Virus record (IMG/VR): IMGVR_UViG_3300013233_000293
Span: 1-62,708 of that record
Reading direction: 5' to 3' (one strand)
DNA from: a virus
Length of the DNA: 62,708 nucleotides
Shown: positions 30,990 to 59,353 of the stretch, in pieces
How positions within the stretch are numbered: position 1 is the stretch's first letter
How the letters are laid out: each line of letters begins with the position of its first letter
Notes under the pieces: generated by a model
Told to the model about the DNA's origin: nothing
The model's database searches: none
What the model saw: only the letters and a program-made list of their open reading frames with translations
Translations under genes and position numbers: made by a program

Positions 30990-31033
30990 CCGTGTACAGT
31001 TAATCAAGGTGATTTTTTTGAAGGAAAAGTCTA

Positions 31034-31879
31034 ATGGCTTATAATAATGATCTGCAAGTTTTGTTTGAAGTAATGACTGAGAAATTTGGTTACGAAGTCG
31101 GTAACTTGATTAAAAGTGAAATCAATGCTGTGCTGCAAACCTCTACGGTTGACGTGGCTGCCCTGACTGCCAAAATCAACACCATTGATACCATTCTTGA
31201 TGGCGATAACGCTGATACACAAAGCACCGTCACCAACCTGATTAGCATTGTCCAGTCTAACGCTTCTGCCGTTACCGCTAATGGTGAAGCCATTGCTGCT
31301 GAAACTGCTGCTCGCGTTACCGCTGTGAACAGCGCTTTGGCCGCTGCCGACGATGTTGATGTTAAAGTTGGTGATTTGGCTAACTTCGACAGCCCTGCTA
31401 ACGACGTGGTTGAAGCTATCAACAACTTGGATGCAGCTATCCAAGCTGTTGCTGATGCCGTACCTCAGTCCGAAGTAGACGCTATCGAAGCGGCTATTGG
31501 CCTGAACAACGATGGTACTTATAACACCCCAGTAGGTACTAACTATCTGGACAGCAGCACCTCTGTGATGAATGCTCTGACCTTGTTGGACAACGAAGTT
31601 AATTCTAACGCAGGCGACATCGCTCAGGAAATTGATGATCGTATCGCAGCCGATGCTTCTCAGCAGATCGCAATTGACAGTAAAGTGGCGCAAGCAGAAG
31701 TTACGGCTATCTCGTTTGCCGGTTTGTCCTCTTTGATCCGTAAGGGTCTGTCTGAGGGTGCTGCTGCCTCTATCGCTGGTACTTACACCGCTACTGGCGT
31801 ATCTACCAACGTTGGTGATGACGTAAGTAACCAAACCGTAGACAACCAAGGCGCTACCGCTGTAACTGCTGGCTTGTAA
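31034..31879 (+). CDS. Highly expressed fibrous virion protein
   Basis: The 281-residue protein is Ala/Asp/Asn-rich, with heptad-like helical stretches (AAETAARVTAVNSALAAADD; IAQEIDDRIAADASQQIAID) and a beta C-terminus. Codon choice is strongly biased to GCT, GTT, AAC and CGT like the capsid gene, unlike the surrounding fibre genes, so it should be made in many copies. AAGGAAAAG precedes ATG 31034, and a strong terminator follows. A high-copy fibre, whisker or head fibre is inferred. Confidence 0.65.
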   Translation: MAYNNDLQVLFEVMTEKFGYEVGNLIKSEINAVLQTSTVDVAALTAKINTIDTILDGDNADTQSTVTNLISIVQSNASAVTANGEAIAAETAARVTAVNSALAAADDVDVKVGDLANFDSPANDVVEAINNLDAAIQAVADAVPQSEVDAIEAAIGLNNDGTYNTPVGTNYLDSSTSVMNALTLLDNEVNSNAGDIAQEIDDRIAADASQQIAIDSKVAQAEVTAISFAGLSSLIRKGLSEGAAASIAGTYTATGVSTNVGDDVSNQTVDNQGATAVTAGL

Positions 31880-54224: not shown

Positions 54225-54508
54225 TGTCGGATACCCCGACCTTCCACCCACTTATTCTCCACCTCGGTAAAGAACTTCTCTGTTTGTTTATCCGTCAATT
54301 CAGCAGGTGAAGCCACACCATATTTTTTAAGCAATGTCATAAAAAATTTACGATATTCTTTTCTGAGATCGGAACCACCTAACTCTTTAACCTTGTTCAC
54401 ATTCGCCACTACACTAACAAACTCCTGTGCTTTTTCTTGGTGGGATAAACTAGATTTGTTAATTCTCGTAAGCTGAGTCTCAACATACGCAACTAATTTA
54501 GGGTGCAT
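54221..54508 (-). CDS. Small protein between portal and protease
   Basis: The 95-residue product is helical and basic (YVETQLTRINKSSLSHQEKA; RKFFMTLLKKYGV). It starts one base into the portal stop and ends in ATGA with the protease. It may be a head assembly factor. No family was recognised. Confidence 0.65.
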   Translation of the reverse strand: MHPKLVAYVETQLTRINKSSLSHQEKAQEFVSVVANVNKVKELGGSDLRKEYRKFFMTLLKKYGVASPAELTDKQTEKFFTEVENKWVEGRGIRQ

Positions 54509-56145
54509 TACTTATTCCTTTTAAGGGCTGTTTTATGGGTTTCGGGATCAGAGATAGCGCGTAGTGCCTTAGCAATTTGTTCGTTTTGCTTAGCATTGGC
54601 TGACCTCTGATTCATAACGTGTTTCTTTTTACCTGTTTTCGTGCGTGTGTACAGCTCAGAGGCTGTACCATAGTCTCTGGTTATAATGTTTGCGCTGGCG
54701 AACTCTTCATCCTCACCTGAACCACCCCCAAACTCTTTTATCTGGTCTCTGAGTTTAGAATCAGCTTCAACACCCGCCACTAGGTTATCTATATCAAGGT
54801 TTCCTGCGGCTGCCCACATCCTGAGACTAATGGGTACACCTTTTTCCGTTAGGGTATCCAGTACCGCCATATAGTCGGTGTTCGCATCGGGTTGGAGTTT
54901 CTTGTGCCAGTCTATTTGAGGGATAACCCACTCACCCGTGTCATTCAAAGCCGTGCCATTAACCTGTAGGTAAGCGGTTGCCTCTTTAGACTCTTTTGCA
55001 AAACCATTTAATGCGGCAATCAGTGGGAATATCTTATTGTAGTAGAGCTGCTGTGTAATGGTGTCACGCTCTGCCTTCATATCCTCCACGAAAACAGACA
55101 TGGCACTTTCCATAGTGTTATAGGATGCATCACCACTTAAAAAGGCATCGTTTATACCCAATGCAATGAGCTTCATTGCACCTAATTGGTCACTAATGTC
55201 TGTCCACTTCCAGAAGTCACCGGCAGGTCGTATCTCTTGAGCCTGTACCGACCGGTGAGTAGCGATTATCGAACTAATGGGATCTTGTTCCGCACGTTGG
55301 AACAAACCAACTAAATTTCGATAGTCATCTTTCGTTGGCGACCACTCTTCGTCCCCTGCTGTTATTTGTAGGGTAGAGCGTTGTCGTCGTGTAGCCTCTG
55401 TTAACGTACCTCGATACAAGAGACGTTCCAGTAGGTAAATATGCAGCACACGGCGATAGTACGACACACCGCCGCTTATAGTGGATAGGGTGTTGCGAGG
55501 CAAATATAAGGTGCTGGCAGGTTCTAGGTCAACCTGACGTGCTGTGCGGAACGTATCCAAGATGGCTGGTGGTATCTTGTTCTGGATACGTTGAGCCTCA
55601 TCGGATTTATCGTTCGCAAAGTCTTTTAAGTGTTTGGGTACGTTAAGCCGGATAATGGGATCTTGGCTGTACAGCGGCACTTGCTGAATCTCAATATCCG
55701 CATAATCATGGGTTATCAGATCTTTAAAGGACTTAGTAGGTGCATCGAAAATAAGGGTGGCCGTAAACGCACCTGTCACCATACGGTCAACCGATAACTC
55801 ACTGTGCAGAGACCTCACATTAAGACTCTGCAAGTTCTTATTGAATACATCAAGAACTTCATCAGATGCACCGGTCAACGTAAAGTCTGACCAAGGTAAG
55901 TTAGCCTTTAAATCAACGGCTGAACCGCATATAGGGTCGTGCATATAAATATCACGGTAGACCGCTTGCAGTTGGTGAGCATCCTTAACTTCTAGGATAC
56001 CATCAAGTAAACTGCTTTTAAGATCTGCCCCTAGTAGGCTGCTGGTACTCTGCACCACGTTACCGCCGTTGCCTCCTTGGGATATTCCCCCCATCGAAGC
56101 AACCACCTTAAGGCGGCCAGATGCACTACGGTGGATGCGTTTCAC
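54508..56145 (-). CDS. Portal protein
   Basis: The 545-residue protein has portal features: VYRDIYMHDPICGSAVDLKA at the clip/wing start, a crown-like basic C-terminus (KTGKKKHVMNQRSANAKQNE), and the central SALYLPRN-like segment (ASTLYLPRNTLSTISGGVSY). It forms the dodecameric DNA channel that docks the terminase. It lies downstream of the terminase gene, as expected, and is coupled to the Zn-ribbon gene. Confidence 0.85.
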   Translation of the reverse strand: MKRIHRSASGRLKVVASMGGISQGGNGGNVVQSTSSLLGADLKSSLLDGILEVKDAHQLQAVYRDIYMHDPICGSAVDLKANLPWSDFTLTGASDEVLDVFNKNLQSLNVRSLHSELSVDRMVTGAFTATLIFDAPTKSFKDLITHDYADIEIQQVPLYSQDPIIRLNVPKHLKDFANDKSDEAQRIQNKIPPAILDTFRTARQVDLEPASTLYLPRNTLSTISGGVSYYRRVLHIYLLERLLYRGTLTEATRRQRSTLQITAGDEEWSPTKDDYRNLVGLFQRAEQDPISSIIATHRSVQAQEIRPAGDFWKWTDISDQLGAMKLIALGINDAFLSGDASYNTMESAMSVFVEDMKAERDTITQQLYYNKIFPLIAALNGFAKESKEATAYLQVNGTALNDTGEWVIPQIDWHKKLQPDANTDYMAVLDTLTEKGVPISLRMWAAAGNLDIDNLVAGVEADSKLRDQIKEFGGGSGEDEEFASANIITRDYGTASELYTRTKTGKKKHVMNQRSANAKQNEQIAKALRAISDPETHKTALKRNK

Positions 56146-56344: not shown

Positions 56345-59300
56345 CTACTTACTAAAATTGGAATTGTTGTCGTCGGTGCCAGCGGTTAGCGTAGCAAAAG
56401 AAAAATCAGGTGAGCTAGATGCTGTACCACTCCCTACGCACACCTCTTCCATCTCCACTTCTTCCTCGGTCATACCGTACTGGTACAGCAAGTCAGGTGT
56501 AAGACAAACGTGTAGACCCAGACAAGCCGCGCGTAATACATCATCTGTGTAACCCTCACCTTTCATAACAGAACCTCTGCTGTCTAAGGTTGCGGTCATA
56601 AACTGGTGGAGTAGGTGAGCCGCCGGTCGATACTTAAAACAATGGGGATAACCGTCCATACTAAGGTTATCAAACTCGGTAAAGGACATCTCAGGTTTGG
56701 GTAGCTTAATATAGTTATCCGTATCATCGGTTAGGTGGTCGTAGATATGCGAGAAGTCGCTAGGACGTAGGCTGTGGGTATCGGTGATGATCCCAAACTC
56801 ACCCTCAATATCCGACAATATTTTTATGGACTGCCAGCGATCAGCTAACACAACCTGCACGTTAAACGCTTCTATCATAGGATATATGAGCTGTTGAGCT
56901 AGGTAGGTGTAATTGAGTACGTTACCACCTTTAAGGGGTGCAACCTCTGCAACGGCTAACACCTCGGCTCCTATATCCGTAGGCCGCGTAATGGCCAAAC
57001 TGAAACTGTTGTTACTGTAACCCGCATCAATAGAAAGTACGGTAGTTCGACTGCGCTTAGGTGTCTTTGTCTTGGTTACGGCTGCGTATCGCTGAGGTTG
57101 TCCAGATCTGGACTCATGCCGTTTATACCGATACTTGACGTGGAACCGACCCCGCATGAGCGTTTTTATATGGTCAATGTCATTCACCCAAGGGTTCTCA
57201 GACATCGGAGGATTAGCACCGAAGTCACGCTCTGCTTTTATTGGGTTATCTCTGTACTCCTTTACGAAGGCTTTGCGGGGTAAATGTGGGTTCATCTCCC
57301 AAGTAGGTAGATGGTAGGTATAGACCTCCCGTGATCCTTCGTGGGTACGGATAAGGGTCATTATCTTATCCATATAACTCGATGGGCTGCTTATATTAAG
57401 CCCTAATCCCATCATAATGTTATCGTTACCAGATTCAAGCAAGGTTAATGCTGCGCCCCTGACCGTCTTAAGGCTCCGGTCAATGGCAACATACACTTCA
57501 TTGGCAGATGCCCTCTCTTTGGAGTCGTTATCCTCACCATGAGGAAACCAACCTAATTCATCAATTGCTGCAAAGATGCGGGTAGCTCCGCGCAACGTCC
57601 GTTTATTAGGCCCGTTAGGTTCCAGCTTAATGTTCTTGTGATAGTAGTGGATAAACGTGTCTTTGACCTTATACAAACTCTTACCCGTTTTTTCCTCATA
57701 GTCATCCAGCATTTTATGGTACGTCTGGAACCACGGGCTATCAGATAATGCAGTATGGAAAGGTTGGAATAAAAGCTCTACGGCCTTGGCGTAGGTTAAG
57801 CCGATAAACGACCCTACCAACAAGCTAGAGGACATAAGCCCAAGCGTCTCGACCGGCTTATTAACCATTAACCACTTGTGCGTTATATAGGGCAACAGTA
57901 GCCCACCTAACAGTGCGCTCTTACCACTGTTATGCGACAACATACCATTGGTTATAAAGCAGTGTTCTACAGGTATGTGGAAATCATAGGTAGGTTGAGC
58001 ATCCCGTAAATTACCCTTTCTAACAGTACCACGAGACAAAACGTAATCACCTTTTAAATAAGCCCTCACCTTATCCAAATTATCTAAGTCGCCTAGATCC
58101 GTAGTTAAATTGGCCAATATAGAAGACAACTTATGTTTACTGTATCCACTGGTTATGTACTTGGTACACACTAAAGGGGCATATTTAGTTATTAGTTGGA
58201 TACAATCGTTCAGTATGTTCAGTGGTATAACCCCAATGGCAGAGGTTGCGGCATTGGGTAATAAGGTAGTTGCGTGAATACAAGAGTTGGCGTACTTCCA
58301 GTAGTGTTCACCCTCTAAAGTGAGTAGGTGTTTTGCACCGGAGATACCCCATTTTTTCACATACTTTAAGGCTATGCCATTGTTGAAGGCCAAACTTTGG
58401 AAGTCTCGGCATACCTTAGCCGTGGGTAGCCTTAGAGTAATGCAGCCCCAACTCTCAGTGCCTGTGGATAAGGCTTTGCACAGGTAGTCCGTTTGTACCT
58501 TCTCGGTTCCGATAAGAACCGATGGCGGTACACTTTTTGATGCGGGATTAAACTCTTGTTTTCTACGCTGGTGGCCGAAAACACGGGTATCTAAATAATG
58601 CAGTATTTCATCGGCGCGGGTTATATCCCTTAATTTTTTATAGCCATTGTAAGTGTATACAGGGTGATCCCCTGTACCCTGTAATCGTCCATAAGGGGTC
58701 TCCAACGTGTAGATGATGTCCAGACCTGATTTAAAAAACTGGGTGGCCACCGCTACCTTCTTACCCTTAACTTTTAGGTTCATGGGTGTGAACCCCACGT
58801 CCTTACCTTGAGCGTAAGCGGATATGGACAGCAAACCTTGGTCGGGTATGGCTACCAGAGTATCGCCGACAACACACCGCTGACCCGCACAGCCGTCAAG
58901 CTCTTCATACACATTAAGCTCTTCCGTGAGGTACATTTCACTACGGGTAGCCGAACACTTAGGACATACGCCATTTTCTAAAAATGTGACTTTTGAAGGG
59001 AAGTCTTCGGCAGGATAGTTAACAGGTACGTTGTTAATATCAGCAAATTTAGGGTTGCTGCATCTGGGACACCATTCACCTAATAAGTGAGTAGCCACTA
59101 CTAATTGACGGGCAAAAGGGGCCTGGTTCATACCTTCTTTGGACATGGCGAACTTAAAGAAATTAGGGAATTCTGTGATATGGGAATCGTCGAAATCCAG
59201 ATCCTTCGGTGCGCCGTCCGTATCCAAAGCATTGTTTAATACATCGGTCAGGTTTAGTTGAGCGTTATCCCATTGGTTTTGTGCATCACGCTCACCCTCT

Positions 59301-59353
59301 TCTAGTTGATCCAAATCACTTTCAAGGGTCAATAATTCTTGGAGTTTCAGCAT
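56345..59353 (-). CDS. Terminase large subunit with intein
   Basis: The 1002-residue precursor has an N-terminal Cys4 zinc site (C95, C98, C130, C133), then the P-loop AGQR / SGKS interrupted by a 316-residue intein. Next come a Walker B-like AAIDELGW and an RNase H-like nuclease domain starting VLSIDAGYSNNSF. Spliced length is 686. The motor packages DNA into the prohead with the portal at 54508. Without splicing the ATPase cannot form. The upstream gene (59322) overlaps its start by 32 nt. Confidence 0.9.
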   Translation of the reverse strand: MLKLQELLTLESDLDQLEEGERDAQNQWDNAQLNLTDVLNNALDTDGAPKDLDFDDSHITEFPNFFKFAMSKEGMNQAPFARQLVVATHLLGEWCPRCSNPKFADINNVPVNYPAEDFPSKVTFLENGVCPKCSATRSEMYLTEELNVYEELDGCAGQRCVVGDTLVAIPDQGLLSISAYAQGKDVGFTPMNLKVKGKKVAVATQFFKSGLDIIYTLETPYGRLQGTGDHPVYTYNGYKKLRDITRADEILHYLDTRVFGHQRRKQEFNPASKSVPPSVLIGTEKVQTDYLCKALSTGTESWGCITLRLPTAKVCRDFQSLAFNNGIALKYVKKWGISGAKHLLTLEGEHYWKYANSCIHATTLLPNAATSAIGVIPLNILNDCIQLITKYAPLVCTKYITSGYSKHKLSSILANLTTDLGDLDNLDKVRAYLKGDYVLSRGTVRKGNLRDAQPTYDFHIPVEHCFITNGMLSHNSGKSALLGGLLLPYITHKWLMVNKPVETLGLMSSSLLVGSFIGLTYAKAVELLFQPFHTALSDSPWFQTYHKMLDDYEEKTGKSLYKVKDTFIHYYHKNIKLEPNGPNKRTLRGATRIFAAIDELGWFPHGEDNDSKERASANEVYVAIDRSLKTVRGAALTLLESGNDNIMMGLGLNISSPSSYMDKIMTLIRTHEGSREVYTYHLPTWEMNPHLPRKAFVKEYRDNPIKAERDFGANPPMSENPWVNDIDHIKTLMRGRFHVKYRYKRHESRSGQPQRYAAVTKTKTPKRSRTTVLSIDAGYSNNSFSLAITRPTDIGAEVLAVAEVAPLKGGNVLNYTYLAQQLIYPMIEAFNVQVVLADRWQSIKILSDIEGEFGIITDTHSLRPSDFSHIYDHLTDDTDNYIKLPKPEMSFTEFDNLSMDGYPHCFKYRPAAHLLHQFMTATLDSRGSVMKGEGYTDDVLRAACLGLHVCLTPDLLYQYGMTEEEVEMEEVCVGSGTASSSPDFSFATLTAGTDDNNSNFSK
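57929..58876 (-). mobile_element. Intein in terminase P-loop
   Basis: Residues 160-475 form the intein. It begins Cys160 (CVVGDTLVAI), has block B TGDH (227-230), block F YDFHIPVEHCFITNG, and ends His474-Asn475 before Ser476. All residues for splicing are present. The middle (about 250-450) has the size of a homing endonuclease but no clear LAGLIDADG or HNH motif, so it is probably decayed. Joining Arg159 to Ser476 restores AGQRSGKS. Confidence 0.9.

Follow-up and report, generated by a model that had tools for sequence, protein, structure and literature searches.

A predicted class 1 intein with a LAGLIDADG-type relic in the Walker A motif of a jumbo-phage-type large terminase

The large terminase gene of the virus record analysed here (the window, a linear record of 62.7 kb that is probably a fragment) is interrupted within its Walker A motif. 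The evidence makes a strong case for a class 1 cis-splicing intein, here in a terminase of the jumbo-phage type, whose origin most likely lies in a LAGLIDADG homing intein that has since decayed.

An intein between the two halves of the P-loop

The terminase precursor is encoded by an ORF of 1002 amino acids plus stop (56345..59353; this gene and all its features lie on the minus strand). It matches the terminase large subunit family phrog_17415 with an E-value of 4.1e-201 and contains the Walker A and B motifs as well as the nuclease acids of this terminase type. Gene order in the window (DnaB-like helicase, hypothetical, TerL, small gene, portal) is that of known jumbo phages. The extein alignment delimits an N-extein (aa 1-159, 58877..59353) with zinc-ribbon-like cysteines that ends in ...CAGQR, where AGQR represents the first half of Walker A (58877..58888). 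The C-extein (aa 476-1002, 56348..57928) starts with the second half, SGKS (57917..57928), and is supported by invariant columns of the alignment, which also locate Walker B (IFAAIDE, aa 593-599) and the conserved nuclease acids D776, D838 and D937/D938; the roles of these residues we presume from our knowledge of the family. Walker A is contiguous in the spliced terminase only.

Two further observations concern other genes of the window. The portal gene (54508-56145) encodes an uninterrupted INDAFLSGDAS, and portals of related phages (L104, L106, L110) carry LAGLIDADG inteins near the FLSGD motif. At 31031-31879 a long ORF on the minus strand (272 aa) and another on the plus strand (281 aa) cover nearly the same stretch, and neither has a PHROG match.

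Based on splicing residues, profile matches and a structure model the intein comprises aa 160-475, i.e. 316 residues or 948 bp (57929..58876). It is inserted between ...DGCAGQR159 and S476GKSALL..., and its removal leaves a terminase of 686 aa. The residues typical of a class 1 intein are all present: Cys1 (Cys160, codon 58874-58876), TGDH at intein residues 68-71 (58664-58675), and a C-terminal His315-Asn316 that is followed by Ser476 as the +1 nucleophile, a serine found at this position in 50 of 50 inteins at the same site. A first-pass annotation of this DNA had proposed an intein that splits Walker A between AGQR and SGKS, and had listed Cys160, TGDH, HN and the +1 Ser; its coordinates are exact and each of these residues was found in the window ORF. 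The N-terminal part of the splicing (HINT) domain is assigned to intein residues 1-95 (58592..58876) from phmmer and model pLDDT values above 90, the C-terminal part to residues 278-316 ending in His-Asn (57929..58045) from profile and model. The GC content of the intein (0.44) is close to that of the extein (0.46) and thus does not point to a foreign insertion of very recent date.

The assignment is further supported by homology. The Pfam model Intein_splicing matches the window intein with an E-value of 2.9e-7 and 30.8 bits, a score below the curated cut-off of 35.8 bits, while phmmer aligns it with the NpuDnaB intein (E 3.6e-7) and a profile of 17 same-site inteins matches solved inteins with E-values down to 2e-11. 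The intein part of the ORF itself also matches the phrog_17415 profile (E 4.9e-10), because members of this family already include intein carriers. An AlphaFold2 model, computed from an alignment of 31 inteins (single-sequence input gave a pLDDT of only 30), has a mean pLDDT of 76, with values of at least 91 for residues 1-130 and at least 93 for residues 281-316, and thus shows the HINT fold of a class 1 intein, its splicing parts being modelled at pLDDT above 90. By Foldseek this model was matched to the Mxe GyrA intein (4oz6 and 1am2, E 3.7e-9 and 1.3e-8, TMt ~0.7), to LAGLIDADG-bearing VMA inteins (E 8.6e-8) and to PI-PfuI; the VMA inteins cover a larger share of the query than Mxe GyrA (TMq 0.43-0.55 versus 0.39-0.40). 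The closest viral structure model is I1TQI9, with 976 aa of the same length as the Lu11 terminase. A chance match to inteins is ruled out by the Pfam, phmmer, same-site profile and structure matches taken together.

The case for splicing is one made from sequence, and the insert might in principle be splicing-dead and the terminase broken. We rejected this reading as exceedingly improbable, given that the catalytic residues are all intact, the ORF is open throughout, the extein is conserved with its invariant terminase residues, and the fold is confident. For a splicing-competent intein the conserved residues suggest that Cys160 would attack the carbonyl of Arg159, that Ser476 would then accept the N-extein, and that Asn475 would cyclise, aided by His474, to join AGQR to SGKS in a 686-aa motor protein. 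That the packaging ATPase needs splicing can soundly be inferred.

The centre of the intein

The first-pass annotation had described a centre of 200 residues with no clear endonuclease motif and had suggested a decayed homing domain. Standard Pfam models indeed identify no endonuclease, LAGLIDADG included, in the window's centre, and a small LAGLIDADG HMM gave no match in the window. However, the centre is about 180 residues long, and a LAGLIDADG remnant is detectable by more sensitive comparison. With a profile of eight LAGLIDADG inteins hhalign yields a full-length, end-to-end alignment of the window intein, in which residues 113-170 (SKSVPPSVLIGTEKVQTDYLCKALSTG..., 58367..58540) align to the second LAGLIDADG repeat (NLEIPWAILEADCEAKAAFLASFVEGDG...) with the acidic motif replaced. 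MAFFT reproduces this register, and the model shows a helix-hairpin-helix arrangement at these residues with pLDDT values of 78-93. Repeat 1 is absent. Residues 171-277 (58046..58366), where model confidence is low and the hhalign correspondence weak, may perhaps represent the segment that follows the repeats in full-size inteins.

Aligned by itself to the LAGLIDADG profile, the centre reaches a score of 23.1, which 4 of 400 shuffles equalled (p about 0.01). The centres of same-site relatives align at the same place, and none of 200 column shuffles was as good in any of three overlapping sets. While an active LAGLIDADG enzyme has two repeats with catalytic acids, the window intein retains one repeat-like segment with the acid replaced; this remnant sits at the usual place of the endonuclease, and the fold matches LAGLIDADG-bearing inteins. 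The centre is therefore best read as a LAGLIDADG relic, with moderate confidence for the window alone and strong confidence for the same-site relatives. The suggested decay of the homing domain is thus borne out by profile-profile alignment, MAFFT and model.

Inteins at the same and at neighbouring sites

In a sample of 94 phage records with the window's terminase type and of IMG/VR contigs, we found 50 terminase ORFs with an intein at exactly the GQR/SGKS site (39 distinct inteins; some of the ORFs are one phage present in two collections), in jumbo phages and in IMG/VR contigs. All 50 have Cys1, T-x-x-H, Asn and the +1 Ser, although the uniformity of Cys1 and Asn is partly circular since candidates had to show GQRC and, ahead of SGK, an Asn. 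The named carriers are Lu11, Yoloswag, Y3, JA29 and HRDY3. TerL inteins of the 'Lupandier' jumbo phages (Lu11, Y3, Yoloswag, JA29, Alexandra) were noted in the 2020 PaBG genome paper (PMC7412058). They resemble the window intein in terminase family, in the GQR/SGKS site by alignment, in Cys1 and in the +1 Ser, but comprise only ~221-231 aa and have a smaller relic. A length of ~221-231 aa was also found for the inteins at this site in the aligned phages of Erwinia, Dickeya, Yersinia and Alcaligenes and in Lu11 and HRDY3. The window intein has 316 aa, compared to 221-256 in most same-site relatives, and is exceeded only in L035-L037 and L081. It is thus an unusually long case of a known kind, and same-site inteins are common in jumbo phages. 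In three of the longer cases (L035:5379-6380, L037:5379-6377, L081:5385-6383; 333-334 aa) the residue that precedes the terminal Asn is Glu in place of His, and none of these inteins gave a convincing family match.

The site is empty in the aligned terminases of GR7B, Peetri, PaBG, Motura, RHph_N46 and BcepSauron, where the +1 position is Ser, Ala, Gly or another residue. The comparison with intein-free terminases proposed in the earlier annotation thus has a clear outcome: GR7B, Peetri, PaBG and others have a contiguous extein, with GQR[SA]GKS uninterrupted in these three phages. In the extein tree the window clusters with the intein-free GR7B and Peetri (99% SH-aLRT), so that, unlike the 'Lupandier' carriers, it belongs to a TerL branch that is otherwise intein-free; occupancy of the site requires at least 3-4 changes (gains or losses) on this tree. 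Since the window intein is at most about 33% identical to other GQR/SGKS inteins, the 'Lupandier' ones included, no recent transfer is visible from any sampled lineage, and an IMG/VR search with the window intein alone returned no close relative.

Selection was estimated by the Nei-Gojobori method for about eleven pairs of related carriers, some with dS near saturation; as the window has no close relative the values are the relatives' own. dN/dS is 0.02-0.31 for the N-terminal splicing part, 0.05-0.27 for the relic centre and 0.03-0.09 for the extein. The low values of the centre demonstrate that the relic is not freely drifting in these relatives.

A neighbouring site is occupied in Xanthomonas phages from one host strain, PhiXhv-12 and PhiXhv-16 (terminase loci L005:1288-4869 and L013:1-3582). 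Their TerL intein resembles that of the window in its related terminase, P-loop location and block layout, but has 447 aa with two LAGLIDADG repeats and lies five residues upstream of the window's site (YA/CVGQRAGKS). It is absent in the sibling PhiXhv-15 (L012:1-2241), the terminase gene of which differs from that of PhiXhv-16 by 3 mismatches in 2241 bases and an exact 1341-base intein in the latter. PhiXhv-15 and PhiXhv-16 are a natural intein-minus and intein-plus pair. As the two genes are near-identical apart from the whole intein, this terminase can do without its P-loop intein.

The presence and absence at the PhiXhv site indicates mobility there. Together with the patchy distribution of the GQR/SGKS intein, with its at least 3-4 gains or losses, and a window centre longer than in most same-site relatives, it could suggest that the window intein still homes, by means of an endonuclease that escapes recognition within the 180 residues of its centre. 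We consider this very unlikely and rejected an active homing endonuclease, as the centre has no endonuclease family match, no repeat 1 and no repeat 2 acid. The window intein would rather originate from a LAGLIDADG homing intein that lost repeat 1 and the catalytic acid of repeat 2, and with both gone is most likely unable to home.

Other inteins were observed in the same or related terminases. In L087:4716-8373, L086:1958-5615 and L088:4944-8447 the terminase is encoded in two ORFs via a split intein (SPWF/C ... HN/C), and the ORF between the halves appears by eye to be a Vsr-like homing endonuclease, a 'fractured gene' layout. In the window's terminase family, L100:5751-7202 has a LAGLIDADG intein within Walker B (RFMA/SIDELG), and L071:3615-5000 and L074:2025-3443 have LAGLIDADG inteins before a zinc-ribbon-like Cys (EY/C). 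Outside this group, the P-loop terminase inteins TerL1-a and TerL1-b have been published in mycobacteriophages (PMC5050341). Their likeness to the window intein is one of position, i.e. the Walker A loop of a terminase ATPase, and TerL1-a sits between the invariant Lys and Thr, whereas the window's cut lies three residues earlier (R/SGKS).

Regulation and persistence

It had been suggested that the intein delays packaging until splicing is complete or responds to redox through Cys160. A regulatory switch of this kind, with splicing postponed to late infection or to the right redox conditions and thereby timing DNA packaging, has a precedent in mycobacterial DnaBi1, a P-loop intein that a cysteine disulfide keeps from splicing under oxidation (PMC6195587). 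Like the window intein, M. smegmatis DnaBi1 is a P-loop intein without endonuclease, a mini-intein; it differs in being a class 3 intein in DnaB that is redox-sensitive via Cys118-Cys48, whereas in the window's class 1 intein a pair of this kind would be hypothetical. Cys160 is the ordinary class 1 nucleophile and thus uninformative on redox. Its nearest possible partner, Cys155 at position -5, is Asn in most carriers, yet Cys in intein-free relatives, and Cys306, which adjoins the F-block His, is Gln in most relatives. Relatives retain endonuclease-less inteins at the same site under purifying selection; such selection is, however, to be expected wherever an intein interrupts an essential gene. 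A function in delaying packaging finds no specific support, as the window's nearest phages, GR7B and Peetri, are free of any intein and the PhiXhv terminase dispenses with one at a neighbouring site. We therefore regard a switch as quite unlikely and the redox proposal as unsupported. It is likewise unlikely that endonuclease-less terminase P-loop inteins, relic included, were domesticated for the timing or quality control of packaging, which would account for their being kept over deep divergence with the relic under purifying selection.

The favoured reading, a splicing intein with a decayed homing domain, would instead have the intein persist by descent, because an intact ATP-binding loop needs splicing and only an exact deletion would be harmless.

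On its own the window intein is one more phage terminase intein. It adds a data point: a longer intein with a LAGLIDADG relic, at a site where the inteins of most relatives are more reduced, and in a terminase lineage otherwise free of it. Seen alongside its relatives, it reveals five points of invasion in the terminase of this group of jumbo phages, the majority within or beside functional motifs. Whether endonuclease-free P-loop inteins are trapped, imprecise loss being lethal, or useful is now a testable question.
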